Part shown: piece by piece, positions 7,840-51,787 of the stretch | Position numbering within the stretch: position 1 is the stretch's first letter | Layout: the number at the start of each line of letters is the position of its first letter | Origin: a virus | IMG/VR virus record: IMGVR_UViG_3300008120_009632 | Location: 23,452-87,451 of that record | DNA: 64,000 bases | Strand: one strand, 5' to 3' | Position numbers and translations under genes: made by a program | Notes under the pieces: generated by a model | What the model was told of the DNA's origin: nothing | The model's database searches: none | Seen by the model: only the letters and a program-made list of their open reading frames with translations

Positions 7840-9489
7840 TTATGCCTCGCATGATGAACAGGTTAAAATACTACGTACTAATTCTTGAGCAGGATTGGAT
7901 GACCTTTGATAATAAAATGTTTTCACTCCATTCTCCCATCCGTATATTAATAGCTCACTCACTTCTTTGGCCTGACAGTTTGGCGGAATCATTAGGTTTA
8001 AGGAAATAGCTTGATCGATATATTTTTGTCTTTGAATATTTTGAATAACAATCTCTTTCTGAGAAATCTCACCAAAAGTTTTAAAAATATCCTTTTCTTC
8101 CTGTGATAAAAAATCTAAATGTTGTACAGATCCTCCTCTGATCAAAATATCTTTCCAGATATGCTCTTTATCTTGATCTTTATCTTTTAATAATTTTTTT
8201 AGATATGGATTTTTATATGTAAAATTACCCTTAGCTAATTTTTTAACAAAATAATTTGAATTAAGCGGCTCAATAGATGGGCTAACCTGACCAAGAATAA
8301 AAGAACTTGAAGTAGTTGGTGCAACAGCTAATGTTGTTACATTTCGTCTACCATATCCCTTTAATAAAGGAGGTTCTCCTAAAAGTTTTGCTAATTCAAC
8401 AGTTGCATTATCTGCTTTTGATCTTATAATTTTCCAAATTTCTGTATTCAATAATTTAGCCTGCATAGATTCGAAACCAATCATTTTAGACTGCAATAAA
8501 GAATGCCATCCTAGAACACCCATACCCAAAGCTCTTTGGTTCATGGCGAAATTTCTAGCAGCCTCCATAAATCTTAAATTTTTTGTCTTACGAATAAATT
8601 CTTCATTAACAGAGTCTAAGAAATATATTAATGTCTCTATAGCATCTGTATCTTTGATCTCATCCCAATGAAGTAGGTTCAGAGAAGACAAAACGCAAAC
8701 AAATGAATTTTGCTCATCAGTAAACAAGGTTATCTCTGAGCATAGATTGCTATTTTTAATCTTTAATTTTTGATCTATGTATGGTTGTGGGGCATGATTA
8801 TTAACATTATCTATAAATACAAGATAAGGATATCCTGTCTCAAATCTTTTTTGAATAATTTTAGCCCAAATTTTTCTCTTGTCTTTATCTCCGTTAACCA
8901 TGTCTTTCATCCAATCATCAGTGATTGTGACACCAATACTCATATTTTGAATATTATGTCCTTCTGATCTGATTTGTAAGAATTCGTTAACATCTGGATG
9001 TTCTATTGGTAAATAAGCAGCAAATGATCCTCTACGTGCTGACCCTTGAGATACAACTTCGGCAACTTTATCAAAAAGTTCCATAAAATGTACAGGACCA
9101 CTGGATTCTCCACCAACACTAATCTTGGCTCCTCTTGCTCTTAGATCGCCAAAGAATCCTGATGTTCCTCCGCCCAACTTACTCATCATTCCAACTTCTG
9201 CTACTTTATCTAATATTCCATCCATAGTATCAGGAATATAGGAACTAAAACATGAAACAGGAAGTCCCCTATTGTTACCGTAGTTCGTCCACACAGGCGT
9301 TGATAAGGAATAAAATCCCCTACTCATATAATCTTCAAACTTATCTGCAAATCCAGGAATATGTAAAATACTCTCTGCATTTTCAGCAATCTGTCTGATT
9401 CTTTCTTCTGGAGTAATACCTTCTTTTAGATAACCTCTCTCAAGGAAAATTCTGCTATGAGAATTTAACCAGTAATATTTCTTATTCAT
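7840..9489 (-). CDS. nrdA: Class I ribonucleotide reductase, large (alpha) subunit, short form
   Basis: 549 residues; reduces ribonucleoside diphosphates to deoxy forms with the beta subunit encoded just upstream. Visible are the substrate-pair cysteine in LPVSCFSSY, GGGTSGF, the active-site NLCSEI, RALGMGVLGWHS, the radical-path Tyr pair in FYYQRSS and a C-terminal redox pair CSSC. Bacterial NrdA is about 750 residues: here the N-terminal ATP-cone is absent, so allosteric activity control is probably lost, as is common in phage enzymes. AAGGA lies before the ATG. Confidence 0.93.
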   Translation of the reverse strand: MNKKYYWLNSHSRIFLERGYLKEGITPEERIRQIAENAESILHIPGFADKFEDYMSRGFYSLSTPVWTNYGNNRGLPVSCFSSYIPDTMDGILDKVAEVGMMSKLGGGTSGFFGDLRARGAKISVGGESSGPVHFMELFDKVAEVVSQGSARRGSFAAYLPIEHPDVNEFLQIRSEGHNIQNMSIGVTITDDWMKDMVNGDKDKRKIWAKIIQKRFETGYPYLVFIDNVNNHAPQPYIDQKLKIKNSNLCSEITLFTDEQNSFVCVLSSLNLLHWDEIKDTDAIETLIYFLDSVNEEFIRKTKNLRFMEAARNFAMNQRALGMGVLGWHSLLQSKMIGFESMQAKLLNTEIWKIIRSKADNATVELAKLLGEPPLLKGYGRRNVTTLAVAPTTSSSFILGQVSPSIEPLNSNYFVKKLAKGNFTYKNPYLKKLLKDKDQDKEHIWKDILIRGGSVQHLDFLSQEEKDIFKTFGEISQKEIVIQNIQRQKYIDQAISLNLMIPPNCQAKEVSELLIYGWENGVKTFYYQRSSNPAQELVRSILTCSSCEA

Positions 9490-9503
9490 ATTCCTTATAT
9501 GTC

Positions 9504-10478
9504 CTAATTAAATAAATCTTCTTCTGTAAAACTTTGTGTGCTTTTTGCGTATTCTACTGGTCTGCTATGGAAAAAATCTGTCATATTATTTCCTAGTACC
9601 TGTTCATCAAACCACGATGTTTTCCCTATAACTTCTTCATCGATATCAAATACGGGATCAAATCCTATTTTAATTAATGATTCGTTCATTCTGTTTTTAA
9701 TGAATTCTTTTAAGAGCGGTGAATTTAACTTATCATGATCATACCCATTTACAATCCACTCTATTATTTGGCATTCATATTTGATCGCTTCTGATGCTTC
9801 TGATATTATCTTGTCTTTTAGCTCATCATCAAACAATTCTGGATACTCTTCTTGGATAGCATTGATAATCTTTATGCCTATCATAGCGTGTAGATTTTCT
9901 TCTCTGGATGTATATTCTACTTGTTTGTTTGTATCCTTAAGAAGGTTTTTATATCTACCAAACCAACTTATTGTATAAAACTGAGAAAATAAAGCGATAT
10001 TTTCAACAAACAATGTAAATAGTATTAAAGAGTAAATGAATTGTTTTTTATTATTTTCATGGAATTTATGCAAATGTTTTCTGAGATAGTTTACTCGTCC
10101 TTTGATGATATCCAATTTTAGAATCTCATCAAAACTATCATCGATACCTAATACTTCTAGTAATCTTTCATAAGCATCTCCATGAATGACCTCTACATTG
10201 GCCATCACATATCCCATATCATTAATCGATGGATGAGGAAGATTATCTCCTAGTTTAGCCCAAAATTTCTTTACTGATATCTCTAATTGACCTATTGTAG
10301 ATAAAGCTCTTATAACAATCTGTTTTTCTTGGTCTGTTAAATTAACAAGAAAATCTTGAACATCACTTTGGAAATTAAATTCTCTATGAGTCCAAAATCC
10401 GTTGTGCATTGCCTCTATAAAATCTTGTGTCCAAGGATAATGATCTGGTTTTCTGGTAATTTGTTCATCAAATATCAT
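9504..10478 (-). CDS. nrdB: Class I ribonucleotide reductase, small (beta) subunit
   Basis: 324 residues. Di-iron carboxylate ligands are in GQLEISVKK, EVIHGDAY and SREENLHAM; the E-x2-H-x3-Y spacing in EVIHGDAY retains the tyrosine that forms the radical in the standard enzyme. The helical ferritin-like core and the C-terminal tail ending in FTEEDLFN, which docks to the large subunit, are intact. It precedes nrdA by 14 bp in the same operon. A GGTGTA-type motif is located upstream. Confidence 0.93.
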   Translation of the reverse strand: MIFDEQITRKPDHYPWTQDFIEAMHNGFWTHREFNFQSDVQDFLVNLTDQEKQIVIRALSTIGQLEISVKKFWAKLGDNLPHPSINDMGYVMANVEVIHGDAYERLLEVLGIDDSFDEILKLDIIKGRVNYLRKHLHKFHENNKKQFIYSLILFTLFVENIALFSQFYTISWFGRYKNLLKDTNKQVEYTSREENLHAMIGIKIINAIQEEYPELFDDELKDKIISEASEAIKYECQIIEWIVNGYDHDKLNSPLLKEFIKNRMNESLIKIGFDPVFDIDEEVIGKTSWFDEQVLGNNMTDFFHSRPVEYAKSTQSFTEEDLFN

Positions 10479-21083: not shown

Positions 21084-22367
21084 TTAATCATTGATTATAT
21101 ATAATGTATTTGGGTCGGGACTACTTATACTATCATAATTAGTTTGACTAAGTTGAACAATATTAGTAATAGTAGAGGCTCCTGTTATGCCAGTTATATC
21201 ACTAACAACCAAGTTATTAGGAAGTATTGCCTGTTCGCCTTGGTAACCCTGACTACCTTGTTCGCCTTGGTAGCCCTGATCACCTTGGTAACCCTGACTA
21301 CCTTGTTCGCCTTGGTAGCCCTGATCACCTTGGTAACCCTGACTACCTTGGTCTCCTTGATATCCTTGATCGCCCTGATAGCCTTGATCTCCTTGGTAAC
21401 CTTGTTCTCCTTGGTAGCCTTGATCACCTTGATAACCTTGGTAACCCTGATTTCCGTCATTACCTTGGTAACCCTGATCTCCTTGAAAACCTTGATCACC
21501 TTGGAATCCCTGAGTTCCTCCATTACCATCAGCACCTTGAGCACCTTGATCACCTTGGTAGCCTTGATCGCCTTGATCGCCTTGAAAACCTTGATTGCCA
21601 TCTGGGCCTTGAGACCCTTGTGGGCCTTCTAATCCTTGATTTCCGTCCGGACCTTGGTTTCCGTCCGGACCTTGGAATCCTTGATTACCATCTTGCCCCG
21701 GAAGGCCTTGATTGCCATCTGGTCCTTGGTTTCCAGAATCTCCTTGAGATCCTTGGAATCCAATATCTCCTTGGTTACCTTGATATCCTTGTTCCCCCTG
21801 ATAACCTTGATAACCTTGATCTCCTTGAAAACCTTGATCGCCCTGATAGCCTTGGTAACCCTGGTCGCCTTGTGGACCTTGATTACCAGAAAATCCTGCC
21901 TCTCCTTGATAACCTTGATCACCTTGATATCCCTGATAGCCTTGATCTCCTTGGTATCCTTGTTCACCTTGATAGCCTTGTTCGCCTTGATAACCTTGAT
22001 CTCCTTGAAAACCTTGAGCACCATCATTACCTTGAAATCCTTGATCCCCTTGATTTCCTTGATTACCCTGTTCACCTTGGTAGCCTTGTTCACCTTGGGA
22101 TCCTTGATCACCCTTGCTAAGAACTAATGTCCAATTTCCAGGATATGCTACTGGATTATAACCAGCAGCACCAATATAAGCTGTCATAACATACAATGAT
22201 CCGTTATATGTAATTGCCTGACCTTCTGAGTAAGTCACGCCGTCATTATATGCTCCTAAATAATTAAATGCTTGAGATCCTTGAGGACCAGCATCTCCTT
22301 GTGGACCTTGATCTCCTTGACTACCTTGCGGACCAGAATCTCCTTGAGATCCCTGATCTCCTTGCAC
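21084..22367 (-). pseudogene. Collagen-like fibre, 3' part after a frameshift
   Basis: The frame encodes about 420 residues: Gly-x-Gln/Gly-Tyr-Gln-Gly triplets, a non-collagen insert (FNYLGAYNDGVTYSEGQ, a carbohydrate-binding-like module near residues 33-85), about 270 residues of GxY triplets and a C-terminal cap of about 55 residues ending in PDPNTLYIIND. It continues the gene of 22256-22969 in a frame shifted by two bases; the only possible start is GTG within the repeat. Removing one copy of the 107-bp duplication at 22341-22554 would restore one gene from 22969 to 21084, about 590 residues. Gln-rich GxY repeats are typical of phage collagen-like fibres. Confidence 0.75.
21261..21350 (-). 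repeat. In-frame 45-bp tandem repeat in the collagen-like gene
   Basis: Two exact consecutive 45-bp copies (21261-21305 and 21306-21350), with a partial third copy just before (from 21241). Each encodes 15 residues, five GxY triplets. In contrast with the 107-bp repeat, it keeps the frame, so it alters only the fibre length. Confidence 0.85.
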
Positions 22368-23281: not shown

Positions 23282-24661
23282 CTAGAGGCTATCAATATGA
23301 GAATAACTATTATTTTTAGTACATCCAGCCTGATAATATGTAATTCCATTAATAATTACAGTATCTTGTGCTGATCTAGGATCATCAAAATCACAAACTG
23401 CTATTCTGGAAAGAACAGCATTAGTAGGAGGTGTTCCGGTTGTACTAGTATACGGATTACCACAAGGACTACCAGTATTAAAAGTATAACTATTATCCCA
23501 TGCTCTAATATTCATTTGATCAGCAATTTCATCTATTCTACAGAATAGAGCAAAATTTGTTCCAGCAGCAAATACCAATCCTACAATTTTTAACACACCT
23601 CCTATATCTGCTATTACAGCAGATCCAGAATCTCCAGGTACTATCGGATAATCTCCTCCATCTTCATATATAAAATATACAATATTATTAAATGTAATAA
23701 CATGACTATTCATAGAAACAGAGCTGGACGCTCCGACTAGATAAGGGATAAGCCTACAAGATACTGTTTCTTCCCATCCTTTTGGTCCAGTGGTTCTACC
23801 TGTAGAATATAATCTATTATTATCTGATAATAAATTATCTATTTCTAATGTTGTAGCGAATGGTAGTTTTGAAGTCATTTGTGGTAAAGTTGAGGGCTTA
23901 TGTATAGCAAATGATTGATTAGTGACTATATTATTATCTAAAAATAACACAGCACAATCAACAGTATTTCCCAATGTTTTTCTAAATGAAGAATACCTTT
24001 TGATTCTTGGGCCAGAAAGGAATAGGCCACCGGTACTAGTATCGTTACAGAGAGATCCTGGCGCTCCACTTATTGATGGGATTGGCGGCCAAGCTCTTTC
24101 TTCATATATATTATATGGATCATTTGTCTCTTGATTTTTTATTCTATCAGAAGCTAGAAATGGATTATTGCAAACAACGTGAGCATTTGTTATTCCAATA
24201 ATATTATTATCTACATTATCTATAGCTAAAAAACCCAATGTTCCAACAGTAAATGACCATTGTGTTTGTCCCCCAACTACGGAAGATGTTGCTCCGGTTG
24301 GGAATTGATATATTTCTTGTCCTCCTTTAATAGGATATAAAAATGCGGGATTTCCACGAAGTCTATTTATTTCGCTATCTAATGGTGATCTGCTATAACA
24401 TTCTATACCTGATGGCAAAGTTGATTGCTCGATAACATCTGTAGTATAAGAGTTACCTCCAATATTTACAGAAGACGGTAGAATTTCATCAGGATTTAAT
24501 TCTGATAATGGTTTTTTCTTATAAACACTAAAGACTATACCTATTTCATTTGTTCTTTGATTATTAACAAATTTATATCCTAATCCAACAGAGTGTACAT
24601 TTTCTGGAGTATCATTATACAAATCTGGTATTTGAGATTTTAACGCTTCTGTTAAATTCAT
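23282..24661 (-). CDS. Trypsin-like serine protease, probably virion-associated
   Basis: 459 residues without signal peptide. The chymotrypsin-fold triad is visible: His in IGITNAHVVCNN, Asp in GNTVDCAVLFLD, Ser in IVPGDSGSAVIAD, followed by KIVGLVFAAGT. The N-terminal 120 residues (VHSVGLGYKFVNNQRTN) match the lead domain of Nal1-like and related bacterial trypsin-like proteins. AGGAG precedes ATG. It may mature fibre proteins or cleave host surface proteins; located between propeller and fibre genes. Confidence 0.82.
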   Translation of the reverse strand: MNLTEALKSQIPDLYNDTPENVHSVGLGYKFVNNQRTNEIGIVFSVYKKKPLSELNPDEILPSSVNIGGNSYTTDVIEQSTLPSGIECYSRSPLDSEINRLRGNPAFLYPIKGGQEIYQFPTGATSSVVGGQTQWSFTVGTLGFLAIDNVDNNIIGITNAHVVCNNPFLASDRIKNQETNDPYNIYEERAWPPIPSISGAPGSLCNDTSTGGLFLSGPRIKRYSSFRKTLGNTVDCAVLFLDNNIVTNQSFAIHKPSTLPQMTSKLPFATTLEIDNLLSDNNRLYSTGRTTGPKGWEETVSCRLIPYLVGASSSVSMNSHVITFNNIVYFIYEDGGDYPIVPGDSGSAVIADIGGVLKIVGLVFAAGTNFALFCRIDEIADQMNIRAWDNSYTFNTGSPCGNPYTSTTGTPPTNAVLSRIAVCDFDDPRSAQDTVIINGITYYQAGCTKNNSYSHIDSL

Positions 24662-24671
24662 AATGTTTCTC

Positions 24672-27026
24672 CTAGTTGTAGTCTGTCCATGCTATAAACA
24701 TGGTTTTTAGGGTTTCTGGCAATGTAGGGGTTGGTGTTGGTGTTAGAGTTGCGGTAGGGGTAGGTGTTGAAGAAGATCCTGGTGATTTTGTTGGTGTTGG
24801 TGTCAATGTGGCTGTTGGGGTTTGTGTTACTGTTACTGTTGGAGTTGGCGTTTGGGCTCCAAATAATAATTCACACGAGGCTTTGTAGAGATATTCTGAT
24901 CCATTACTACCTGATCTTCCACTTGCAGAAAGATAAACCATATCTCCACTGCTAGATATTGCAACACCAGTCATATATCTGATTACCGGTTCATTTTGAT
25001 CTGATAATTGAACCCAAGAATCGCCACCATCTTTGCTAACGATATAAGAATAAGTTCCATATCTTATTCCAACTATAGTATTTAAATTATTAGAACATGT
25101 TAAATTTCCAGCAAACCCATCTATATATTGTATATTTGTCCAAGTTAATCCTCCATCAAGACTTCTCCATATTCCGTTAGCAACATCTGGTCTACCATAA
25201 CCAGTTCCATTTTCTCTTACAGATACTATCATTTTTGTGCCATCAGAAGACACACATCCGCCACTTAAATTAACTACAGGATTTGGTCCTAGAACATATG
25301 GTGTCCATGAAAATCCACCATTAGTACTGATGAAAACATGGCCAGCTGAGAAACTATTTCCAACAGCTAATAGTTTTGAACCATCGCTAGAGCAAGCAAT
25401 GGAGCTTATTGCAAAAGATACGTCCGACGTTATACTATAAGAAGTCCAATTTAGACCATAATCTGTTGTTTTTAAGATGTTTCTATAATTTCTTTCTACC
25501 ACATATATAGTGCTTCCATCGTCTGATGAGCATATACTAGAAGCTTCTATATCAAATCTGGTTGGCGAAGCAACAGAAAATTGGGTTGCTTGATCCCAAG
25601 ATGCTCCACTATTACTTGATATCCATATATTATCGCTATCATGTATTACTCCAATCTGTCCATTTTTAGAGATAAAACATGATATTAAAGAAGATGGCGC
25701 TAATATTTTTGTCCATGTTGTTCCTCCGTTAGAACTAATATGAACTCCTATCGCGTTGGCATCAGCTGAACTTGAGTTTGCAACTGCAATTAATTTTTGT
25801 CCATCAGCAGAACAGGATATGTCTGTCCAATACCCAGCAGTATTTATTATTTTTTGAAAATAGTTACAAGCATTGATTATTGGTGAACTTACTGTTGGGG
25901 TTGGAGTCGGAGTTGAGGTGGCTGTTGGTGTCGGAGTATTTGTTGCTATCGGACACATTAGTAATAAATTATCTCTATTATCATCATTTGGATTATTATA
26001 GATAATATTTGAAATTATATATTCACCAGCTATAGGAGTAGTAAAAGGATTTAATATATCAGGAGTATTAGACCATACTGCTCCTGAAGTTAATCCAGAA
26101 ATAGATCCACCAAAAGCAACTTGTTGCCATCCTTCAAAACAAGATGTATCTGGGTTAAAAAAAGCAACAGTAGGTGTTGGCGTAGGAGTACATGTAGATG
26201 TGGCACTAGGAGTTGGGTTTGCTGCTGATGTTGCTGTTGGGGTTTGTGTTACCGTTGCTGTTGGAGTTGGTGTTACCGTTGCTGTTGGAGTTGGTGTTAC
26301 TTGTGGACAATTACTATCAGCAGTTACGAATCCAGAAATGATTTGATCTTTAACATAGCCTGATACTAGACCATTTTCTTTCACTTTCCATTGTCCAAAA
26401 AGACTATCTGAATAAAATGAATCTATCATTTCTAAATTCATTTTCCATAACTGATCAATATTATCATAATATATATATGTGTTTAAATTAATATCTAACC
26501 AAATATAATAACCAATATATACAAAAGTAAAATCTCGTAATCCACCACTTGTATATGGAATAGAACAACCGTATATTCTAAATGGATATGGAGTGTCATT
26601 ATTACATTCTTCAATATCTTGATGACGTGTTTTATTTACTATATTAGTATCTATAGATTTACTATATTGATTTTTATTCATAGAATAAACTATAGATAAT
26701 TTTTGTTTACATAATCTGTAAAGAGATGTTTGCGGCCATCCGTTGCTAAAGTCACCAGTTTCTAAATTAAATTGATTTGTTCTTATAGCTTCTGCTATTT
26801 TATTTATATATATAGATCTAGCTTCATTAATTCCATTCTCTTTAAAATTAAATTTTTTGTTTTGATTTAGTACTGGATCAAACTCTATTTTTTCTTCTCC
26901 ATATTCTGAATATTTTTCATTATATGTTTTTTGATATTGTTTAGATAATATTGGTTTATCATTGATACCTGTATTTAATATTACTCCTGAAATCTCTGTA
27001 GTTTTAGGATTAAAAATATGTGACAT
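24672..27026 (-). CDS. BNR-repeat beta-propeller with TPTPT linkers
   Basis: 784 residues. Residues 1-250: unrecognised domain with YCKxK-like helices and aromatic strands. Then Thr/Pro linker blocks (TPTATVTPTPT), a small domain, another linker, and at about 390-730 a beta-propeller of sialidase/Ycf48-type repeats with Asp-box-like motifs (SSNGGTTWTKI, STNGGFSWTPY, SLDGGLTWTNI, SKDGGDSWVQL). A third TPTPT block precedes the end. No sialidase catalytic Arg/Tyr set could be assigned, so carbohydrate binding is more likely than hydrolysis. Probably an exposed adhesin or tail spike. Confidence 0.75.
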   Translation of the reverse strand: MSHIFNPKTTEISGVILNTGINDKPILSKQYQKTYNEKYSEYGEEKIEFDPVLNQNKKFNFKENGINEARSIYINKIAEAIRTNQFNLETGDFSNGWPQTSLYRLCKQKLSIVYSMNKNQYSKSIDTNIVNKTRHQDIEECNNDTPYPFRIYGCSIPYTSGGLRDFTFVYIGYYIWLDINLNTYIYYDNIDQLWKMNLEMIDSFYSDSLFGQWKVKENGLVSGYVKDQIISGFVTADSNCPQVTPTPTATVTPTPTATVTQTPTATSAANPTPSATSTCTPTPTPTVAFFNPDTSCFEGWQQVAFGGSISGLTSGAVWSNTPDILNPFTTPIAGEYIISNIIYNNPNDDNRDNLLLMCPIATNTPTPTATSTPTPTPTVSSPIINACNYFQKIINTAGYWTDISCSADGQKLIAVANSSSADANAIGVHISSNGGTTWTKILAPSSLISCFISKNGQIGVIHDSDNIWISSNSGASWDQATQFSVASPTRFDIEASSICSSDDGSTIYVVERNYRNILKTTDYGLNWTSYSITSDVSFAISSIACSSDGSKLLAVGNSFSAGHVFISTNGGFSWTPYVLGPNPVVNLSGGCVSSDGTKMIVSVRENGTGYGRPDVANGIWRSLDGGLTWTNIQYIDGFAGNLTCSNNLNTIVGIRYGTYSYIVSKDGGDSWVQLSDQNEPVIRYMTGVAISSSGDMVYLSASGRSGSNGSEYLYKASCELLFGAQTPTPTVTVTQTPTATLTPTPTKSPGSSSTPTPTATLTPTPTPTLPETLKTMFIAWTDYN

Positions 27027-27050: not shown

Positions 27051-29990
27051 TTAAGTATTTAAAATAATACCATGACCAGTACTTGTTGCGGTTACCCATC
27101 CAGGGAGACTATTACTCTGAGTAGCATAAGTCCAATAATTAGCTGTTGTGTTATTAGAGTTAGTTCCAGCATAATATGCCGCTTTATACCATTCATTTTC
27201 ATCAGGAATAAAGTAAAGAGCACAATTTGACCTGAGCCAGCCACTAACGCTGCTATCAAACGAGGATCCATTATTATCAAATTGATAAACTCCACTTTGT
27301 TGATATTTCCATCCATTCTGTTTATTATTATGCAACCAATTGATATATCTACAAGCCATTTTTCTATTAATAAATCTCACAGGCTTGTATAACATATTTG
27401 TTTGTTCTGTAAAAACATATGGATTTGCTATAGTGCCGCTACCTGATCTATTTATACCACCATAGCATCCACTCATGTATGGATGATATACCCATTCTAC
27501 AACAGTTGGAGAAGTATTACTTTGTCCATCTATTCCTGTGGTCGCAGTACTATTTAAAAATTGAGTGTATTCTGAATTATTTACTGGATAAATACCAATT
27601 TGGTATGAATAATTAACAGAACCATATCCTGTGTCAGGATCACTATTATTTCCTGTTGGTGGAGAACCTATATCAGTTATTGGTATCATTCCACTAAAAT
27701 TATATGGATTAGTATATGACCCTACTCTAAATCCAATATAATCATCATATTGATTATTGGTGTCAGTGTCAAATGAGAATCTTGCATATTTTCCAATAAT
27801 AGTACTATTAAACGAACCTCCTCTATAAATATATCCACTACTTTGACTTATAGAATTTGTAATATAACATACTTCTAAAATATTTCCATCTTGGTCATAA
27901 GTTCCATAAGAACTTGGACCACCATTCGTTCCTACTCTAGTAACGCTAGCAAATCTTCTTAACTCTGGAGGTTTGCCAGGACAATCAGAACTACAATATC
28001 CCCAAATAGACCTATTGTTATAGTTTGCATAATTTTGATAAGCATTATCACAACTTTCTGCACACCTAACAGCGACATAGTTTGATACACTATAAGGAAT
28101 ATCTATTCTAGATAGTGTTACTTTAGCAATAGCATTACTATTATTATTTAATGCTAATAAAGAAGTGATTCTATTAGGACTACCGCTAGCTCCACCAAAT
28201 GATACTCTACCACTATTAGGCATAAATATTACATCTTCAGTGCTTGAAGACAGAGTAAAGGAATATATTTTTCCAGGTTGAGGGTCTGTTACATTCATTA
28301 CTAATGGGACATATTGATCACATAGTCCACCGCTAATGTTAATAATATTTTGAGATAGTGGTGACTGAAATGCTATTCCAGCTTTATCTAATTGAGAAAT
28401 AGTTGGCAATAAATTTTGATCTAAAGATATTCTTAAAGAATCATTACAACCAGGACAATAATCAGTAGATATGTCTAAATTTAAAGTATTATAAATATCT
28501 ATATCTTTATAGATTCTAAGCTCATCTTGTTCTAGATGGTTATAGTCTAAATTAGTATTAAATATAATTGTTCCATATATATCATTTGGTTTAAATTTTA
28601 AAATAGCATTAAGATAATAGTTGTCAGATGATGCAATAAAGGAACCGGAGAGTGGTTCTATTCTACTAGGCCAATTTGATCCTTCTGAAGAAAATCCATA
28701 AAAATATTTTTGTCCAATATTTAGATTTGATATCTTAGCTTTTATTGGAAAAATATAATTACCAGATGATGCATTTTCTAGATTCTCTAATTGAACTGAT
28801 GGACAGTAATTCTGTGATAAAGCATAGTTATATTTATTATATGAATTAGCATCAATAGAATTTTCTATAAGATATTTCATATCTTTTTTATTTATAAAAC
28901 TATTGATAATATCATTACCAGTAATGATCAATGGAATAGTTTGTTCTACTGATGCTTGATATTCTGAAGATATGACATTTCCAGTTAAATCACATATTAC
29001 GGCTGTTGGATCTTCATCACTTTTATTACCATATTTCCAATACTTGTTATTTAATACATCATAATATGCAGCTTTATACCATTCGTTCTCGCTTGGTAAG
29101 AAATATTTTGCTGTATCTTGTCTGTAGCATCCAGATACAGTTATGGGATTAGTATATAATGAAGCTATATCATACGATCCTGATGTGATACTTAGAATAT
29201 CCGACTGTTGGTCATTTGTAAGCCAATTGCAATATTGTGCTGCCATTATCCATTTAATAAATGTAACTGGTTTATTACCAAAATTATTTTTTACAGAATA
29301 TAGGAATCCTACATCATTGCAACTGTTAAAGGCGATGCCTCCAACTGGCGACTCATTCATTCTTTCATCGTATATCTGATATTTTTTTGATCCGGATGGG
29401 TCTATTATATTTAAATAATTACAATATTCTGTATTAGTAACTAATTGATCTTGTATATTATATAAATAATTAACCTGACCTAATTTAGAATCTAAACCAT
29501 ATTCACAATTATCTGGAGTATTTCCAGTATCTGATATAGTTGTATATATACTATTTGAATTTAATGGTTTTGCTGTATTAGATGATTCATTATTAGCAAC
29601 TCTAAATCCTATGCATCCATAATCTAGCATTGAAAAAATATCAAAATGCTTACTGTGCTCTTTGCTTAAATTAGCTGGATCTGTATCAGCAAAACATCCA
29701 CCTCTTAATATTTTTAGATTATTGTTTTTTTGAGATAATCCAGATTTAAATAATGATGACGTGGATGGTGGCAATTCAGAGAATGGGCAAGAATCAGTCC
29801 ATTGATATAGTTGTCCAGCCATATCATATATTGAGTATGCTGATGAATCTCCATTAGATCCTGTAACCGTAACATTACCATTGATAGAATTATTCCAGTT
29901 GGCTAATTTTTTATAATTAGCAGTAGTAGTACTAGAATTTTTAGGTTCTATATTAATTACTAATTCTATATTAGAGTATATATTATTCAT
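27051..29990 (-). CDS. Giant tail-type protein with two permuted FGE/SUMF1 modules
   Basis: 979 residues. Module 1: C-half at about 22-131 (SSAYSIYDMAGQLYQW, RGGCF, CIGFRV) before N-half at 170-330 (TNTEYCNYLN, KPVTFIKWIMAAQYCNWL, ENEWYKAAYY). Module 2 repeats this order at the end: C-half about 655-760 (YGTYDQDGNILE, RGGSF, IGFRV) and N-half about 790-965, ending soon after NYWTYATQS. Between them lie Ig-like repeats with a GSNWP motif. Normal FGE-like proteins have N-half first. No catalytic role is implied; FGE folds often serve as ligand-binding tail domains. ATG has no strong ribosome site. Confidence 0.8.
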   Translation of the reverse strand: MNNIYSNIELVINIEPKNSSTTTANYKKLANWNNSINGNVTVTGSNGDSSAYSIYDMAGQLYQWTDSCPFSELPPSTSSLFKSGLSQKNNNLKILRGGCFADTDPANLSKEHSKHFDIFSMLDYGCIGFRVANNESSNTAKPLNSNSIYTTISDTGNTPDNCEYGLDSKLGQVNYLYNIQDQLVTNTEYCNYLNIIDPSGSKKYQIYDERMNESPVGGIAFNSCNDVGFLYSVKNNFGNKPVTFIKWIMAAQYCNWLTNDQQSDILSITSGSYDIASLYTNPITVSGCYRQDTAKYFLPSENEWYKAAYYDVLNNKYWKYGNKSDEDPTAVICDLTGNVISSEYQASVEQTIPLIITGNDIINSFINKKDMKYLIENSIDANSYNKYNYALSQNYCPSVQLENLENASSGNYIFPIKAKISNLNIGQKYFYGFSSEGSNWPSRIEPLSGSFIASSDNYYLNAILKFKPNDIYGTIIFNTNLDYNHLEQDELRIYKDIDIYNTLNLDISTDYCPGCNDSLRISLDQNLLPTISQLDKAGIAFQSPLSQNIINISGGLCDQYVPLVMNVTDPQPGKIYSFTLSSSTEDVIFMPNSGRVSFGGASGSPNRITSLLALNNNSNAIAKVTLSRIDIPYSVSNYVAVRCAESCDNAYQNYANYNNRSIWGYCSSDCPGKPPELRRFASVTRVGTNGGPSSYGTYDQDGNILEVCYITNSISQSSGYIYRGGSFNSTIIGKYARFSFDTDTNNQYDDYIGFRVGSYTNPYNFSGMIPITDIGSPPTGNNSDPDTGYGSVNYSYQIGIYPVNNSEYTQFLNSTATTGIDGQSNTSPTVVEWVYHPYMSGCYGGINRSGSGTIANPYVFTEQTNMLYKPVRFINRKMACRYINWLHNNKQNGWKYQQSGVYQFDNNGSSFDSSVSGWLRSNCALYFIPDENEWYKAAYYAGTNSNNTTANYWTYATQSNSLPGWVTATSTGHGIILNT

Positions 29991-29993
29991 AGT

Positions 29994-32249
29994 TTATGCC
30001 GGGGTTGATGATGGAGTTGGCGTTAATGTTGGTGTTGGCGTTGCTTTTAATAAATTAGCATTCTGTCCTCGGACAGCATCCGCACAAAATTCAAAGATGC
30101 TAGATATCGTAGTATTATTATGAGACATAATAGTTCCAGATAACGGATATATAGAGCATGCTTGGTTTGCATCTTTAAGTCTATAATAGTATGTAACATT
30201 ATACTTATCCAGATCAGGCAATCCAGACAGAGATATATCTATTTGTTTGATTAGACTACCGCTACCGGATACTGGAATAGTATGAGTATCAGTATTGATA
30301 TCTATAGATAATGGCTCACTATAAATTAAATTAGAACTATTTGAAACATAGATATTTAAACAATCTTTAGATGTATTAATAGATTTTATACAATTATCAT
30401 TGTATTCAGAATATTCAAATATAATATCTTCTAATAATGCTTCCAGCTCTTTCTGTTTAATAGTATCTGATGAGTATTGTTTGATATCTTTCTTAGTTAC
30501 ATTTATTGCAGTAGTGTAAGCTACATGACTATTATCTGTTACTAAATTTTTAATATCACTACCATCTAAAGATAAAGACTTAATTTTTTGGATCAGATAT
30601 TGAGATAAATACGGTGTTTTTGATTTATGTATTAATGGTAATTTTAGAGGTAATTTTGCATCCGCATTTGTTATAAAGTAATATGATTTTCCGGGATCTA
30701 ATGATGTTAATGTAGATTTATTATTAGGTATAGTATGATTACCACTAGAAGTCGTATTAAAAAATATAGTATTATTTGAAGTAGAATAGATAGTTGAAAT
30801 ATTATTTATGAAGTTATTCCAATCTTTAACAATTTCATTATTATGACTAAGTCCAGTAGGGGCGGACAACAATGATAAATTTCCCATAGCATATGCAGGA
30901 TATTCTTTAATACTATATATTTTATCCAAAATTTCTGGATCACATACTGGTTCTTTTGATGGTGTTATAGAGATTGTCGGTGTAACTGTTGGAGTCCTTG
31001 TCGGAGTCTTTGTTATTGTAGGAGTAACCGTTGGAGTTCTAGTTGGTGTTTTTGTTGGTGTTGCTGTTTGTGTTCTGGTTAGTGTTATTGTTGGGGTTAT
31101 TGTAACAGTGGGAGTAGGGGTTTTTGTCGGGGTTTTTGTTGGAGTTTGAGAGATTGTTGGTGTTATTGTTATAGTATTAGTGATTGTTGGAGTTACCGTT
31201 GGAGTAGTACTAATAGTAGGAGTCAAACTATTAGTTGGAGTAACCGTTTGTGTTGGTGTTGGAGTTTGACTAGCCCCAATACTTTGAGTTGGTGTGGGAG
31301 TTGGAGTTGTGGTAGAGGTTACAGATACTGTTGGAGTTGGAGTTGGTGTTGGATCTTGATTTGTGACACCACCATCTCCTATACTGCTATCAAAAGGGAC
31401 ACAACCAGTAGACCCAACCGGACAAGGTACGGTATCTGTTTGAGTGGCATAAGTCCAATATTTTGGTACAGAACTATCATAAAAAGCTGCTTTATACCAT
31501 TCATTAATTGTTGGTATTGCATAGATGGCATCTATATTTCTAGTAAAAATAGAATTATTAATTATAGTATATGCACCAGAATTAATATCACTAGCAGATC
31601 CATTGTGTAGCCAATTACACATTCTAGCAGCACTAATAAAGGATACATAATTAACTGGTTTATTTTGAAAATTTGTTTTTGTAACATACTTCGATCCTGA
31701 CGGATTAGTTGTAACAAAATTTATTCCACCTCTTGGATTATTATTTCCATTTAATAATTTAGACATCAAATTAGAATATAGTCCATAAGTATTTAATCCA
31801 TTGGGATCGACAGCATTTAGAAAGGCCGCATATTGACTATTCGTAACAGGTTCGATCATTATCCTATAGTTATAAGCTACGGATCCATATCCTGTTCTAC
31901 TGTCATTACTATTGTTGATATCAGGAATATCTACACAAGAAAGAAAACTATTTAATACTGTAAAACTAACAAGTCGAAAACCAATATTATTTGATAATGT
32001 TGAATAATTAATAGTATTTTTACCATAACACGATAATGAATCACTATTTGTATTCCATGATCCTCCAAAAATATCAGAATATATTAAACTATCAATATCA
32101 TTTAAGGATTCTAGCCATTCCCATACATTACCAGACTGATCTAATGTTCCATATGAGCTTGGCATACCATTAGTACCAACGGATGTAACATTACCATTAA
32201 CTCCGTTCCATACTGCTTCACTATTATAGTTAGCGCTATTATAGGACAT
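29994..32249 (-). CDS. Permuted FGE/SUMF1 module fused by TPTPT linker to Ig-like repeats
   Basis: 751 residues. The C-half comes first (residues 5-97: [34 protein letters not shown]), then the N-half (120-283: [54 protein letters not shown]). A 130-residue Thr/Pro linker follows (about 300-430), then beta-rich domains similar to the neighbour 32262-33917 ([17 protein letters not shown]...YPLSGTI) and a second TPTPT block at the C-terminus. No signal peptide; probably an extended, glycosylatable tail protein. Confidence 0.78.
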
Positions 32250-32261
32250 AAAATTTCCCTA

Positions 32262-33917
32262 CTATGTTGGTAATGTTGGTATTTTGTTTGGACATCTTAA
32301 TATGATATTATCAACTGCATAAATATTAGTAGTTGGATCGGAGACTACTAACCTTACAGTGGTTCCAGGTCTATTATTAAGGTTGTAAACTGCTCCTATT
32401 TTACCTACGCCATTTCCAAAGGATATAGTGCCAGATAGTGGTGTTATAGATACTAAACTATTACTATTATAAAATCTATAGTTATATTGTTTACCACAAC
32501 AAGCTCCACTAACAGTAGCCATAAGAATTTGATCTTTATTACAGCATAGAGTATCTGATAAGTTAATCTCAGATCCTGGTCTATTATTTTCTGTTAATCC
32601 TCCTGATGGATAGATATTATCAGTATTATCAAATTTAATATATAGACTGTCAATACAATCTTCATTTCGAGATTCTATATTCCCTTGAATAACAATAGAT
32701 TCTCTATAAATATTATTTGAAGATTCATTAACAGATAAAGTTAGAATCGTATAAATATTTTGATCAATAAATTTTTCAGTATAAAAAGGTTCTAAATTAT
32801 ATTGTAGATTAGGCCAAGAGTCAAACGGATTGTAGACTGTTGACATAGAAAAATTTGTTTCTATTACACCTGTCCCATATATCATTTGTGATTCATTATC
32901 TTCATACATGCTTTTTGGTCTGATAGTTTGTGATTTAGGTAAAATCTTGCACGGCCAATTGCTCCCAGCAGAAAAAAATCCGTATGTATAGGTTTTTGAA
33001 GGATCTAATCCAGAATAGTTTATATATATTGGCATAGTTCCGCTGCAATATACTCCACTAACCGATGCAAAACTACCTAGAATATTAGATAATTTAAAAA
33101 TTGGAGTTTTTCTTGTTGTATTAGGTAAACATTCATTACACTTAATATTTATTTGATCATTAAATAATAGATTCATATCTTCTGAATATAAGGATATATT
33201 CAATACCGTAAAAATATTTTTATAGTAAAAATTACTATTTGTATCTATATTTGAATCATACGGAATACTATTAAGATAGTTATCTCCACTTGGATAATAA
33301 CTAAATAAAGATTTTATAATACCACTAGTAAACCCAGAAGGATTGGTGGTATTTGATCCTTGTAGATATCCGGATAAAGAAGATAATTTTGCTGGCCAAT
33401 TAGAATATACTGGTATTATTTCATAAAAATATGTTTTAGATGGATATATATTATCTATTTGTAAATTGATATCATATGTATATTCATTACTAAGTTCTAT
33501 ATTTTGATATGATTTATCTATAGTATTTGGTTTTCCATAACATGAATACGATAGATTGCACTCATGATCATGACGATGACAATCATGATTATTTAAAAAT
33601 TCTTCTGAATCAATATTTTTAGGAATAGTCAAAGGCAAATTTTCTTCTGATATTAATACTATATAATATGTTTTATTTGGATCTAGACTACTTAATGTAC
33701 TACCTCTATCTGGCTCTCTCTGCGTAGTTGATGGTATAATCTTAGTAAAAAAAACAGGAATTGTTCCATCAAATTTAGTTTGACCATAAACATATAGTAT
33801 GCTATTAATAAACTTATTATATTCTGATTTACCTTTAGAATCCTGTGGACTATTAAATAAATCAAATGATGTCTCGCCATCATATTTAAATATTGCAGTT
33901 TTAGAATATATGATCAT
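32262..33917 (-). CDS. Ig-like repeat structural protein
   Basis: 551 residues of repeating beta domains about 130-150 residues long. Repeated signatures: LDPNKTYYI, TYFYEIIPVYSNWPAKLSSLSG, KTYTYGFFSAGSNWPCKI, each followed about 80 residues later by a Cys-containing end (INIKCNEC, ESRNEDC). The same module is found in the two downstream giant proteins. Likely a rod-like virion protein. It starts with MIIYSKTAIFKYDG, without signal or membrane segment. Confidence 0.7.
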   Translation of the reverse strand: MIIYSKTAIFKYDGETSFDLFNSPQDSKGKSEYNKFINSILYVYGQTKFDGTIPVFFTKIIPSTTQREPDRGSTLSSLDPNKTYYIVLISEENLPLTIPKNIDSEEFLNNHDCHRHDHECNLSYSCYGKPNTIDKSYQNIELSNEYTYDINLQIDNIYPSKTYFYEIIPVYSNWPAKLSSLSGYLQGSNTTNPSGFTSGIIKSLFSYYPSGDNYLNSIPYDSNIDTNSNFYYKNIFTVLNISLYSEDMNLLFNDQINIKCNECLPNTTRKTPIFKLSNILGSFASVSGVYCSGTMPIYINYSGLDPSKTYTYGFFSAGSNWPCKILPKSQTIRPKSMYEDNESQMIYGTGVIETNFSMSTVYNPFDSWPNLQYNLEPFYTEKFIDQNIYTILTLSVNESSNNIYRESIVIQGNIESRNEDCIDSLYIKFDNTDNIYPSGGLTENNRPGSEINLSDTLCCNKDQILMATVSGACCGKQYNYRFYNSNSLVSITPLSGTISFGNGVGKIGAVYNLNNRPGTTVRLVVSDPTTNIYAVDNIILRCPNKIPTLPT

Positions 33918-35313: not shown

Positions 35314-35994
35314 TTATTTTTTTAGATTAATATGCTCTATAAACATATGCAAACTGTTAATATTAAATAGTCTTATACCATATAATTCAGCCATTTTTAT
35401 TACACTATTAGCGTGTTTTTCATTATAGATATTTCCCGTGCTAATAGTATTAATTCTACTTTTACTCATTAAAAAATTACAAGCGATTAAATTATCATTA
35501 ATATCATCAATCATAGTGCCAGAAGAAGGTAAGACTGTATGGATTCCATAGTCCATCAGTATTTGACAAACTTTGGCTAAGACATCATGATTATATATAC
35601 GATATTCCAATATATATCTAAGTTGGATATTAAACTCATTACATGTTTCTAAATTAGATTTGATATCATCTCTAAATTTATCATATTTTCTATTGGTAAT
35701 AATTTTTGTAGGAATAAATAAATCTATAGTTTTAATAAGATTATTGTATGTTTTGCACAGATTGGACACTGCAAATGATCGTGTTTTCAGGTCGGCAACG
35801 CCCGTAGGGAAATCTATTGGGCATGAGATATTGATATTTTTTTCTTTGATATCAGGTAGAGATCTGATAGTACTTAAAGTATATGGTAATACAGAAATAT
35901 TCGTTATACCGTGTTTAATAGCGTCTGTTATGTTTTTAGCTGTCTCGATTTCATTAATAGAATAATCTAGACAAGCATATTCTGTATAAATCAT
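35314..35994 (-). CDS. DeoC-like TIM-barrel protein, catalytic lysine not seen
   Basis: 226 residues. The beta-alpha order resembles deoxyribose-phosphate aldolase: ITNISVLPY, CPIDFPTGVADLKTR (the FPxG loop), IDLFIPTKII, LRYILEYRI, and a GNIYNEKHA segment. The family motif with the Schiff-base Lys (KTSTGF) is here TVLPSSGTM, without Lys, so aldolase activity is doubtful. It overlaps clpP by 4 bp. DeoC normally breaks down deoxyribose phosphate; here it could be a regulator or altered enzyme. Confidence 0.55.
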   Translation of the reverse strand: MIYTEYACLDYSINEIETAKNITDAIKHGITNISVLPYTLSTIRSLPDIKEKNINISCPIDFPTGVADLKTRSFAVSNLCKTYNNLIKTIDLFIPTKIITNRKYDKFRDDIKSNLETCNEFNIQLRYILEYRIYNHDVLAKVCQILMDYGIHTVLPSSGTMIDDINDNLIACNFLMSKSRINTISTGNIYNEKHANSVIKMAELYGIRLFNINSLHMFIEHINLKK

Positions 35995-36668
35995 AATTTT
36001 TTAGCATAATGTTTTATATAGTCTATATTTGGAAATTGTTTCGAACCCAAAATACCATCTGCAAAACCATAATCTACTGCTTCTGGAGCTGTTAATATCC
36101 AATCACATTTATTAGCAATTTGAGATATTATATGTTTTCTTGCGATCATTTTTTTCCATTTTTTTTCTTTTGCTATCTTACTTGATATACACCTATCTGT
36201 GAAGATATCTATCATCTTATCACACTCTTGTTCATTCCAGTGAATAGAACTGGCTGCTGCTTTACTATGCTCTTCATTAATACTAAATGACCCATAATGG
36301 ATCAATACGTTTGTATTTGGCATCAAAATTCTTAAATCTGCAGATTGTAATAAAACACTACTAGAGGATTCAGCTTTGGCATAAGCAAGTATTATTATAT
36401 TACATGTACATGATTGTATCGCATCGTACATACCTAAGCAGTCTTGCCATTCTCCGCCTGGTAAATGCATATGAACCAATATGGGATCCATAGATATCAT
36501 ATTTAGATATCTTAAATTTTTTTCAAATACAATCGCACTTCTATAGTCTACTCCTCCTTCGATTTCGCCATCAGATATATAAGAGTGTAGATAGATTTCT
36601 CTATTATTGATATCTATGTTATAGTTATGAACATAGTCTATGTCTTGTGTTTCTTTATTTATCTTCAT
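35991..36668 (-). CDS. clpP: ClpP-type protease
   Basis: 225 residues of the ClpP/crotonase serine protease fold: SDGEIEGGVDYRSAIV, DPILVHMHLPGGEW (oxyanion loop), a nucleophile region in AKAESSSSVLLQSAD where the usual G-x-A-S becomes A-E-S-S, and LIHYGSFSI with the catalytic His replacing the MIHQP motif. The C-terminus ends DWILTAPEAVDYGFADGILG as in ClpP. No ClpX/ClpA ATPase is nearby, so it may borrow a host one or act alone, for example as a prohead protease. Confidence 0.8.
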   Translation of the reverse strand: MKINKETQDIDYVHNYNIDINNREIYLHSYISDGEIEGGVDYRSAIVFEKNLRYLNMISMDPILVHMHLPGGEWQDCLGMYDAIQSCTCNIIILAYAKAESSSSVLLQSADLRILMPNTNVLIHYGSFSINEEHSKAAASSIHWNEQECDKMIDIFTDRCISSKIAKEKKWKKMIARKHIISQIANKCDWILTAPEAVDYGFADGILGSKQFPNIDYIKHYAKKL

Positions 36669-49776: not shown

Positions 49777-49977
49777 TTAGTGATTATAATATCTATCCCA
49801 ATCTTCCCATTCTTCATCTTCAAATTCTTCTTTTATCTTTTTAAGTTCTTTTTTCTGAAGATGGCTTTTTTCCTGGTTTTCGTCCTCAAAAGAAAAATCT
49901 CTTCTAAGATTCTTCTTCTTGATTTTTTCTCTTCTGACGTTCTTTCTGTCTGTATTGTCTTCTTCTTTGTTTTTCAT
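49777..49977 (-). CDS. Small highly charged protein
   Basis: 66 residues from ATG 49977 (MKNKEED), because ATG 49998 would lie at or upstream of the expected transcription start of the 50004-50031 promoter. Very Lys/Glu-rich, ending DEEWEDWDRYYNH. Likely a disordered regulator or binding protein. First gene of the minus-strand divergent unit. Confidence 0.55.
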   Translation of the reverse strand: MKNKEEDNTDRKNVRREKIKKKNLRRDFSFEDENQEKSHLQKKELKKIKEEFEDEEWEDWDRYYNH

Positions 49978-50003
49978 TTTCTCTAGTCCAAAGTTCATAA
50001 TTC

Positions 50004-50031
50004 ATAGTACTCTTGGTCACAAAAAAGTCAA
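50004..50031 (-). promoter_or_regulatory. Sigma-70-like promoter, leftward
   Basis: Minus strand TTGACT (50026-50031) and TACTAT (50004-50009) with a 16-base spacer. It would transcribe the small genes at 49777 and below. Back-to-back with the rightward promoter at 50055. Confidence 0.5.
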
Positions 50032-50054
50032 CACCCAGATAAAAAATTTCAAGC

Positions 50055-50085
50055 TTGACATCATACCGTATTCTAATTATATATT
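50055..50085 (+). promoter_or_regulatory. Sigma-70-like promoter, rightward, for the plus-strand island
   Basis: TTGACA (50055-50060) with TATATA (50078-50083, 17-base spacer) or TATATT (50080-50085, 19-base spacer). It stands before the only plus-strand gene block. Confidence 0.55.
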
Positions 50086-50125
50086 ATGCAGTCGGTTGGA
50101 TTTAATCTTATGTAAGACATTTATA

Positions 50126-51787
50126 ATGATAAATACTACTATAGTTACTGGTATTTGGGATCTAGGAAGATCCAATTTATCAGACGGTTGGTCTAGGAAT
50201 TTTGACCACTATATAAACAATTTCAAAAAATTACTATCTAGTTTGGGTGACGATGTTCCTGTTATAGTTTTTATAGATAAAGAACATGAGGATATTGTTT
50301 GGTCTATTAGAAACAGATCAAATACAGCAGTATATCATCAACCAAAAGATGGTTTTTCTGGAAATTTTTTTCCATTTTTTGATAAAGTACAGAAAATAAG
50401 AACTAATAATCAATGGCTTGAGCAAACAGGATGGCTAAAGGATAGTACTCAAGCTAAAATGGAATTATATAATCCTATGGTTATGAGCAAAATGTTCATG
50501 CTACATAATGCAAAAATATATAATCCATTTAATACAGAATATATGTTTTGGCTAGACGGAGGAATAACTAATACTGTACATGAAGGTTATTTTAGTCATG
50601 ATAAGGTTATACATAAGCTAGAAAAAATAGTAGATAAATTTTTCTTTATATGTTTTCCATACGAAACAAATTCTGAAATACACGGATTTAGAATAGATGG
50701 GATGAATAGATACTCAAAAGCAAAAGTTAATAGAGTTGCCAGAGGAGGATTATTCGGTGGTCATATAGATTATATATCTGAAGCTAATGGATTATATTAC
50801 TCATTATTAAACGACTCACTTACAGAAGGATTAATGGGTACAGAGGAAAGTATTTTCACAATAATGACCTATCTTGATGAAGATACATATAAATATCACA
50901 TGATAGAGAATAATGGACTAATTAATAAATTTTTTGAAGATATCAAAAATATATCTAGTGAAGATATTAATAGCATTCATAATAAAAGTAGAAAACCTTA
51001 TGAAAATAATGATGTATTGTTGTATATAAATACATTTAATTCACCTGAACAACTCCAAATGGTTTTAGATAGTTTTGAATTATATGATAATAATTTTCTG
51101 AATAAAACAAAAAAAATACTAATTAATAATTCAACTAAAGTAAATCTAAAAGATCAATATGATAAAATATGTAATAAATATAATTTTATAGAACATATAT
51201 GTAAAGGTAATTTAGGAATTTGTGGAGCTAGACAATTTGCAGCAGAAGATTTTGACAATAAAAAATCAAAATATATGATTTTTTTTGAAGATGATATGCT
51301 ATTAGATCTTTCTAAAAATATATGTAATGTTGGATTTTCTAAGTATGTTAATAATTTGTATGATAATATCATTAAAATAATGAATAAAGAACACTATGAT
51401 TTTCTAAAATTTTCATTCGCTGAGTTTTTTGGACATAATGGAGATCAATGGAGTTGGCATAATTTACCATCAGAACAAAAAATTAAATACTTTGGACCAG
51501 TAAAGAAAAAACCACATACAAATATTAAACATATAAAAACATTTAATAATGTTCCATATGCTGAAGGAGAAATATATTATTCAAATTGGCCTCATATAAT
51601 TGATCAAGAAGGAAATCAAAAATTATTTTTAGACACTAAATGGGATAATCCTTTTGAGCAGACTTGGATGAGCCACATTTATACTCTAACAAAACAAGGT
51701 ATCGTTAAACCAGCTATACTATTAGCTAGTCCAATTACACATAATAGGGTTCATTTTTATGAAGGAAATGAGAGAAGAGAAAACTAA
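50126..51787 (+). CDS. HtrL/WlaTC-type protein fused to a GT-like domain
   Basis: 553 residues from ATG 50126 (MINTTIVTGIWDLGRSNL). Residues 1-280 match the HtrL/YibB family (TGIWDLGR, YNPMVMSKMFMLHNAKIYNPF, FWLDGGITNTV, RVARGGLFGGHIDYI). Residues 300-450 are GT2-like: VLLYINTFNSPEQLQMVLDSF, NLGICGARQFAAEDF, YMIFFEDDMLL. The longer frame from 49919 is rejected because its first 69 codons lie in the promoter region and reverse the opposite gene. No strong ribosome site is seen. Confidence 0.75.
   Translation: MINTTIVTGIWDLGRSNLSDGWSRNFDHYINNFKKLLSSLGDDVPVIVFIDKEHEDIVWSIRNRSNTAVYHQPKDGFSGNFFPFFDKVQKIRTNNQWLEQTGWLKDSTQAKMELYNPMVMSKMFMLHNAKIYNPFNTEYMFWLDGGITNTVHEGYFSHDKVIHKLEKIVDKFFFICFPYETNSEIHGFRIDGMNRYSKAKVNRVARGGLFGGHIDYISEANGLYYSLLNDSLTEGLMGTEESIFTIMTYLDEDTYKYHMIENNGLINKFFEDIKNISSEDINSIHNKSRKPYENNDVLLYINTFNSPEQLQMVLDSFELYDNNFLNKTKKILINNSTKVNLKDQYDKICNKYNFIEHICKGNLGICGARQFAAEDFDNKKSKYMIFFEDDMLLDLSKNICNVGFSKYVNNLYDNIIKIMNKEHYDFLKFSFAEFFGHNGDQWSWHNLPSEQKIKYFGPVKKKPHTNIKHIKTFNNVPYAEGEIYYSNWPHIIDQEGNQKLFLDTKWDNPFEQTWMSHIYTLTKQGIVKPAILLASPITHNRVHFYEGNERREN

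Follow-up and report, generated by a model that had tools for sequence, protein, structure and literature searches.

Two FGE-like proteins in a viral structural gene neighborhood

The window analyzed here is a 64,000-nt stretch of the 87,451-bp IMG/VR record IMGVR_UViG_3300008120_009632, which derives from an uncultivated bacterial virus. Two adjacent genes encode proteins A and B, which carry three modules with sequence similarity to the PF03781 (FGE/SUMF1) profile, each made up of a C-half, a joint, and an N-half (Table 1). The initial annotation called both proteins giant; at 979 and 751 aa they are large only, and relatives reach up to 3,063 aa. The pair lies downstream of ORF 32262–33917 and upstream of a Sortilin-like propeller. 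"SNWPxxIxPLSG"-type repeats are common to A, B, and the upstream ORF, which likely belongs to the same structural unit. Neither flanking ORF contained an FGE half detectable with Pfam, so no partner half lies next door. Comparison of A and B with their counterparts in L006, a contig 82% identical to the window, indicated purifying selection (omega of 0.13 for A, 0.18 for B, and below 0.2 for each half).

Table 1. Features of proteins A and B, neighboring genes, and one nested relative (coordinates refer to the window unless a contig is named).
Feature	Coordinates	Strand	Basis or remarks
Upstream ORF	32262..33917	-	"SNWP...PLSG" repeats as in A and B
Protein B, 751 aa	29994..32249	-	N-terminal permuted FGE-like module, Thr-Pro-rich linker, C-terminal beta-rich part
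B C-half, residues 4-95	31965..32240	-	PF03781 150-254; half-profile E 1e-33; begins 3 residues past protein start
B joint of old C- and N-termini, residues 96-118	31896..31964	-	Homologous to canonical N-terminal leader
B N-half, residues 119-279	31413..31895	-	PF03781 35-138; half-profile E 7e-63
B Thr-Pro repeat linker, about residues 300-432	30954..31352	-	Sequence; low-complexity matches
Protein A, 979 aa	27051..29990	-	Permuted module, beta-rich repeats, permuted module
A module 1 C-half, residues 23-133	29592..29924	-	PF03781 147-254; custom half-profile
A module 1 joint, residues 134-168	29487..29591	-	
A module 1 N-half, residues 169-333	28992..29486	-	PF03781 37-141; custom half-profile
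A inter-module stretch, residues 334-652	28035..28991	-	"SNWPxxIxPLSG"-type repeats
A module 2 C-half, residues 653-758	27717..28034	-	Custom half-profile
A module 2 joint, residues 759-786	27633..27716	-	
A module 2 N-half, residues 787-968	27087..27632	-	PF03781 35-133; custom half-profile; ends 11 residues short of protein end
Downstream ORF, Sortilin/Vps10-type propeller	24672..27026	-	PF15902 E 3.4e-10; Thr-Pro linkers
Collagen-like tail fiber	21084-22367		A and B lie upstream
Protease	23282-24661		A and B lie upstream
Head-maturation-type protease	35991-36668		A and B lie downstream
Nested canonical-in-permuted region, residues 950-1405	L007 ORF 5995-12831	+	

Swapped halves in the window and among relatives

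In all three modules the C-half precedes the N-half, as had been proposed from the sequence alone, and the boundaries found with Pfam and with custom half-profiles agree with that proposal to within a few residues. PF03781 scored 82.4 bits on A and 57.2 bits on B (cut-off, 23.3) as half-length stretches, and a scan of the whole virus record returned five half-hits in reversed profile order, among which the N-half of A module 2 scored 15.9 bits and thus fell under the cut-off. The custom half-profiles located every half at E≤2e-27. Since they were built from the three modules themselves and then iterated over relatives, the Pfam profile serves as the independent check. Motifs conserved in the family are present in both halves (EYxxFLN, NWL, NEWYKAAYY, GNVxEW, RGGS, and GFR). 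Judged by sequence, the modules clearly belong to the FGE family and depart from the collinearity of the known fold, with none of the three showing the N-then-C order of the superfamily. Compared with PF03781 family members (FGE, SUMF2, PvdO, CarF, and the C-terminal domain of EgtB), which they resemble in that both halves match family sequence and motifs, the A and B modules differ by their reversed halves, by the absence of the FGE cysteine pair, and by their placement within large virion-type proteins.

The same arrangement recurs in related viruses. Scanning viral contigs with the B module yielded 14 loci, most of which matched residues 4 to 275, i.e., in permuted order. An N-half query, which carries no order information, found 75 loci in IMG/VR; pairing of adjacent halves then classified 86 viral modules as permuted and 5 as canonical. 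When 84,980 bacterial and archaeal genomes were searched with the same query, 80 loci were recovered, mostly from Planctomycetota and Verrucomicrobiota, and their modules were all canonical (78 canonical, 0 permuted; Fisher p 1e-42, a descriptive value only, as the sequences are related). In the sets tested, the swapped order marks a large virus-specific branch of the FGE-like family. Searching by halves, as suggested in the initial annotation, matched both halves in reversed order here and in relatives; hits to one half alone, which would have spoken against the proposal, were not what Pfam gave. Because L006 and 86 distinct modules, spread over dozens of contigs that are independent of one another, show the same order, neither chance nor an assembly slip accounts for it. 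Even a canonical query retrieved more permuted modules (58) than canonical ones (36) from IMG/VR. Many of the latter are single-domain proteins of ~300 aa on short contigs, which may be host DNA. Permuted modules occur in viral contigs of up to about 240 kb.

The closest cellular relatives found are canonical FGE-like proteins of Planctomycetota and Verrucomicrobiota (33 to 41% identity over the N-half), which are often single-domain proteins of about 300 to 350 aa with a leader like the permuted joint, but whose modules read N-C in 78 of 78 cases. No full-length permuted match at E≤1e-66 was obtained from 681 genomes of these phyla (392 Planctomycetota and 289 Verrucomicrobiota), a threshold that permuted modules passed in seven of seven positive-control virus records; scoring covered the few best candidates of each genome, and rare prophage copies could thus be missed. 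Among 50,697 GenBank phage records, no match was obtained with A, with either of two permuted homologues, or with a canonical viral module.

Both orders can also share a chain as separate units. In a 3,062-aa ORF present in L007, L024, and L233, a canonical module (about residues 1038 to 1292) sits inside the N-half of a permuted module (residues 950 to 1001, resuming at about 1282 to 1405), and in another contig (L011, L036, and L177) a canonical module directly follows a permuted one. Other arrangements include L018 2036–5950, L054 813–4625, and L078 3744–6368, which are permuted with 286 to 306 residues between C-half and N-half, the large insert lying at the joint of the old termini, and L064 1395–6677 and L080 1383–6668, in which the orders are mixed, as C-(170 aa)-N-(17 aa)-C; the 170 residues might hide a divergent N-half.

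Probable local pairing of the halves and predicted fold

The initial annotation raised the alternatives of a permuted fold and of halves pairing in trans, and noted that each protein begins or ends without a partner half. The latter observation is not supported, as each half in A and B has a partner 23 to 35 residues away, across the joint. AlphaFold2 (27 relatives) modeled B residues 1 to 290 as a single confident domain (pLDDT 88.6, pTM 0.89), the outcome of the single-module check that had been suggested, and a canonical viral module taken as a control (L011 residues 890 to 1180) reached pLDDT 82.9 and pTM 0.88. The helices and strands of the B model are those of the canonical module, with their order swapped. 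The C-half and N-half are therefore predicted to pair locally into one PF03781-type domain; for B residues 1 to 290, this single domain is a feature of the model.

Structure searches behaved as a permuted chain would lead one to expect. Foldseek aligns in sequence order, and with the B model, although better predicted than the control, it gave no match in the PDB at E≤1e-3 (best, the FGE paralogue 1y4j at E 0.97). The canonical control gave 77 matches, including TvpA (best, 5.9e-11), CarF, PvdO, FGE, and EgtB, with FGE-type structures in all of the best 50 of the 77. Viral predicted structures likewise yielded no significant match, as would be anticipated when a permuted fold is aligned sequentially. 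When the permuted profile was instead compared with FGE-family PDB chains, stretches aligned in swapped order; on 5aoh, for example, profile positions 163 to 257 fell on chain residues 62 to 160 and positions 30 to 93 on residues 199 to 263, the N-half stretch being weak.

The joint itself resembles the product of a fusion. It corresponds to the ordinary N-terminal leader of the family fused behind the C-terminal GFRxAS strand: a profile made from the leaders of canonical bacterial proteins (consensus ...VTVGDPGNAADTTG) matches the residues between GFRxAS and GYGSV, and 55 of 86 joints scored above 5 bits against it, whereas control flanks reached this score once among 71 and never among 65, and none of 86 shuffled joints did. 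Gaps between the halves of permuted modules span 22 to 61 residues (median, 27). Chain ends respect the permuted unit, with 21 of 64 protein starts lying within 13 residues of the C-half and 21 of 66 protein ends within 25 residues past the N-half (the next value being 151), and stand-alone permuted proteins of 311, 320, and 322 aa exist in other viruses (L070, L094, and L042, respectively). The old termini are thus joined, the new termini lie at one fixed internal site, and the same secondary-structure elements are present, as in a circular permutation.

Local halves also diverge together. The correlation between local partners was 0.49 over 25 modules and 0.53 over 14 (0 of 500 shuffles), and canonical bacterial modules gave r 0.57, whereas the correlation of each N-half with the next C-half along the chain was 0.22 (27 of 500 shuffles). 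These values bear on two other readings. In one, a C-half complements an N-half from a different chain, and pairing in trans or domain swapping of this kind stitches the fiber together. Almost every protein opens its modules with C and closes them with N, forming in formal terms an open chain of halves, and joints of 22 to 37 residues might be long enough to permit exchange. We nonetheless regard such pairing in trans as very improbable, because the B module on its own is modeled as a single compact domain, because C-N proteins stand alone, because the joint carries the family leader expected of a cis fusion of the old termini, and because the halves codiverge with their local partners. Every half has such a partner, and trans pairing is not needed, although a domain-swapped oligomer of permuted modules is formally possible. 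In the other reading, N1 and C2 of A form a canonical module around an insert of about 320 aa, leaving C1 and N2 as remnants. A long stretch does divide N1 from C2, and relatives carry big inserts within modules (the nested canonical module of L007, and L018 and L078). This pair is the only candidate for normal-order pairing within one chain, an arrangement that would have told against permutation, and it is disfavored by the weaker correlation (r 0.22 versus 0.53), by the presence of just one C-N pair in B and in many relatives, and by the conservation of the outer halves, which equals that of the inner ones (omega <0.2); we give it hardly any weight.

Of the two initial proposals, the permuted fold is the one strongly backed, by the single-module prediction, the stand-alone homologues, the leader-derived joint, the codivergence, and the canonical-fold control. 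We consider it highly probable that the three modules of A and B are circularly permuted, fold in cis, and represent a virus-specific lineage of noncatalytic binding modules in virion proteins.

Probable function, origin, and significance of the permuted modules

The superfamily includes several enzymes, and the modules might accordingly be enzymatic in the manner of FGE, EgtB, or PvdO rather than binding modules. Catalytic human FGE carries the cysteine pattern GG..CxxxxC. This active-site pair, i.e., CxxxxC after the GGS motif of a formylglycine-generating enzyme, was found in 0 of 86 viral permuted and 0 of 78 bacterial modules, a result that speaks to the FGE cysteine pair only, and the genes sit amid tail fiber genes; an enzymatic role seems very unlikely. 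Binding is the function to which the surroundings point. Tail fibers, Ig-like repeats, and Thr-Pro linkers suggest a virion adhesin or binding module, and in L070 the stand-alone permuted gene lies directly behind a 1,212-aa fiber with Mtd_N and phage-tail-repeat domains. Given the gene context in the window and in L070, a role as a virion-borne ligand-binding module is likely.

The Mtd_N fiber next to the L070 gene provides a link to the variable proteins Mtd and TvpA of diversity-generating retroelements, with which the permuted modules share the FGE subclass of the C-type-lectin fold. Of the two, Mtd serves a phage in receptor binding (PMC5006420). Unlike the permuted modules, Mtd and TvpA are retroelement diversified and not permuted. 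FGE-type C-type-lectin domains are classic targets of such retroelements (PMC5006420), and TvpA headed the PDB matches of the canonical control; variation could conceivably be aimed at the C-half. The C-halves are, however, conserved (82 to 89% identical to L006; omega, 0.04 to 0.15), and a search of the 87-kb record, which may be incomplete, for a reverse transcriptase (PF00078) gave none. We give this reading next to no probability.

How the permutation might serve binding is suggested by the fold. In C-type-lectin domains the first and last strands (beta1 and beta5) pair (PMC5006420), which places the termini side by side and makes them easy to join. In Mtd and TvpA, helix 2 and strand 2 are separated by an insert that helps to support the ligand-binding variable region (PMC5006420). 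Mapped by sequence motif, the permutation cut appears to fall in this insert, which would move the points of chain attachment. We tentatively propose, as a possibility that we hold somewhat below even, that the permuted modules are a class of adhesin specific to viruses. In this reading, the chain was opened in the insert that separates helix 2 from strand 2, close to the ligand-binding sheet, and closed at beta1/beta5, changing how the module is mounted on the fiber; for this reason, the permuted form would be the prevailing one in these phages, whereas bacteria have retained the canonical form.

The trees point to a limited number of origins. A careful analysis of 55 modules gave a tree in which one branch, supported at 100/100, sets the permuted modules apart from the others, making one or few origins likely, and in which the viral canonical modules formed no group of their own. 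A larger quick tree placed the L044 canonical module among Akkermansiaceae proteins (support, 99) and the L011/L036 one among planctomycete proteins. Quick trees of 153 modules required 2 order changes when concatenated and 4 and 8 for the single halves, compared with ~51 by shuffling. One or few permutation events, with canonical modules captured from bacteria on separate occasions, fit best; the extra changes in the larger quick trees may reflect a second origin or a reversal of half order.

The following scheme can be proposed. The permuted order probably has one or a few origins, and the simplest route would be that canonical modules were duplicated in tandem and the outer halves then lost; bacteria do have arrays of canonical modules in tandem (e.g., L132, L151, and L166). 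The chain would have been cut in the loop between "...YWxYATQS" at the end of the N-half and "xxANYNxxAxWN" at the start of the C-half, and the old C-terminal strand (GFRxAS) joined to the old N-terminal leader (FVxVGDxxNxxD-GYGSV). Each C-N pair would fold locally, in cis, as one complete domain, and the permuted form would then have spread as a virus-specific lineage of noncatalytic binding modules, strung together with Ig-like repeats and Thr-Pro linkers in what are probably tail or fiber proteins of the virion. The chain would enter and leave on a different face than in ordinary FGE-like domains, and the modules would likely bind host surface ligands.

Searches of the open-access literature retrieved no paper on permuted FGE/SUMF1 domains and nothing relevant on permuted C-type-lectin phage domains, and no domains of the FGS type (C-type-lectin fold) were reported in a survey that covered 224 jumbo phages (PMC7824862). 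As Pfam returns half-domains only and sequential structure searches miss the fold, permuted modules are probably underannotated. A whole viral branch of the FGE-like family is permuted, and this sharp contrast between the viral and bacterial versions of one fold offers a natural experiment on why the chain entry point matters in the binding domains of phage fibers.

Several other genes in the window deserve mention. An ORF at 60924–61928 (minus strand) gave a full-length match to the actin-like protein Volactin (PF25216, E 4.8e-63) and adjoins a 503-aa ORF (59416–60927); a phage-encoded filament system is possible. On the strand opposite to A and B, positions 49919–53039 (plus strand) encode an HtrL_YibB-like protein and a GlcNAc-type glycosyltransferase (PF11397, E 1.6e-73); more glycosyltransferases and an FkbM methyltransferase are found in the window, and together these genes suggest glycan modification. 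The large and small subunits of a ribonucleotide reductase are encoded at 7840–10478 (minus strand), near genes for a UvsX-like recombinase and a DnaB helicase.
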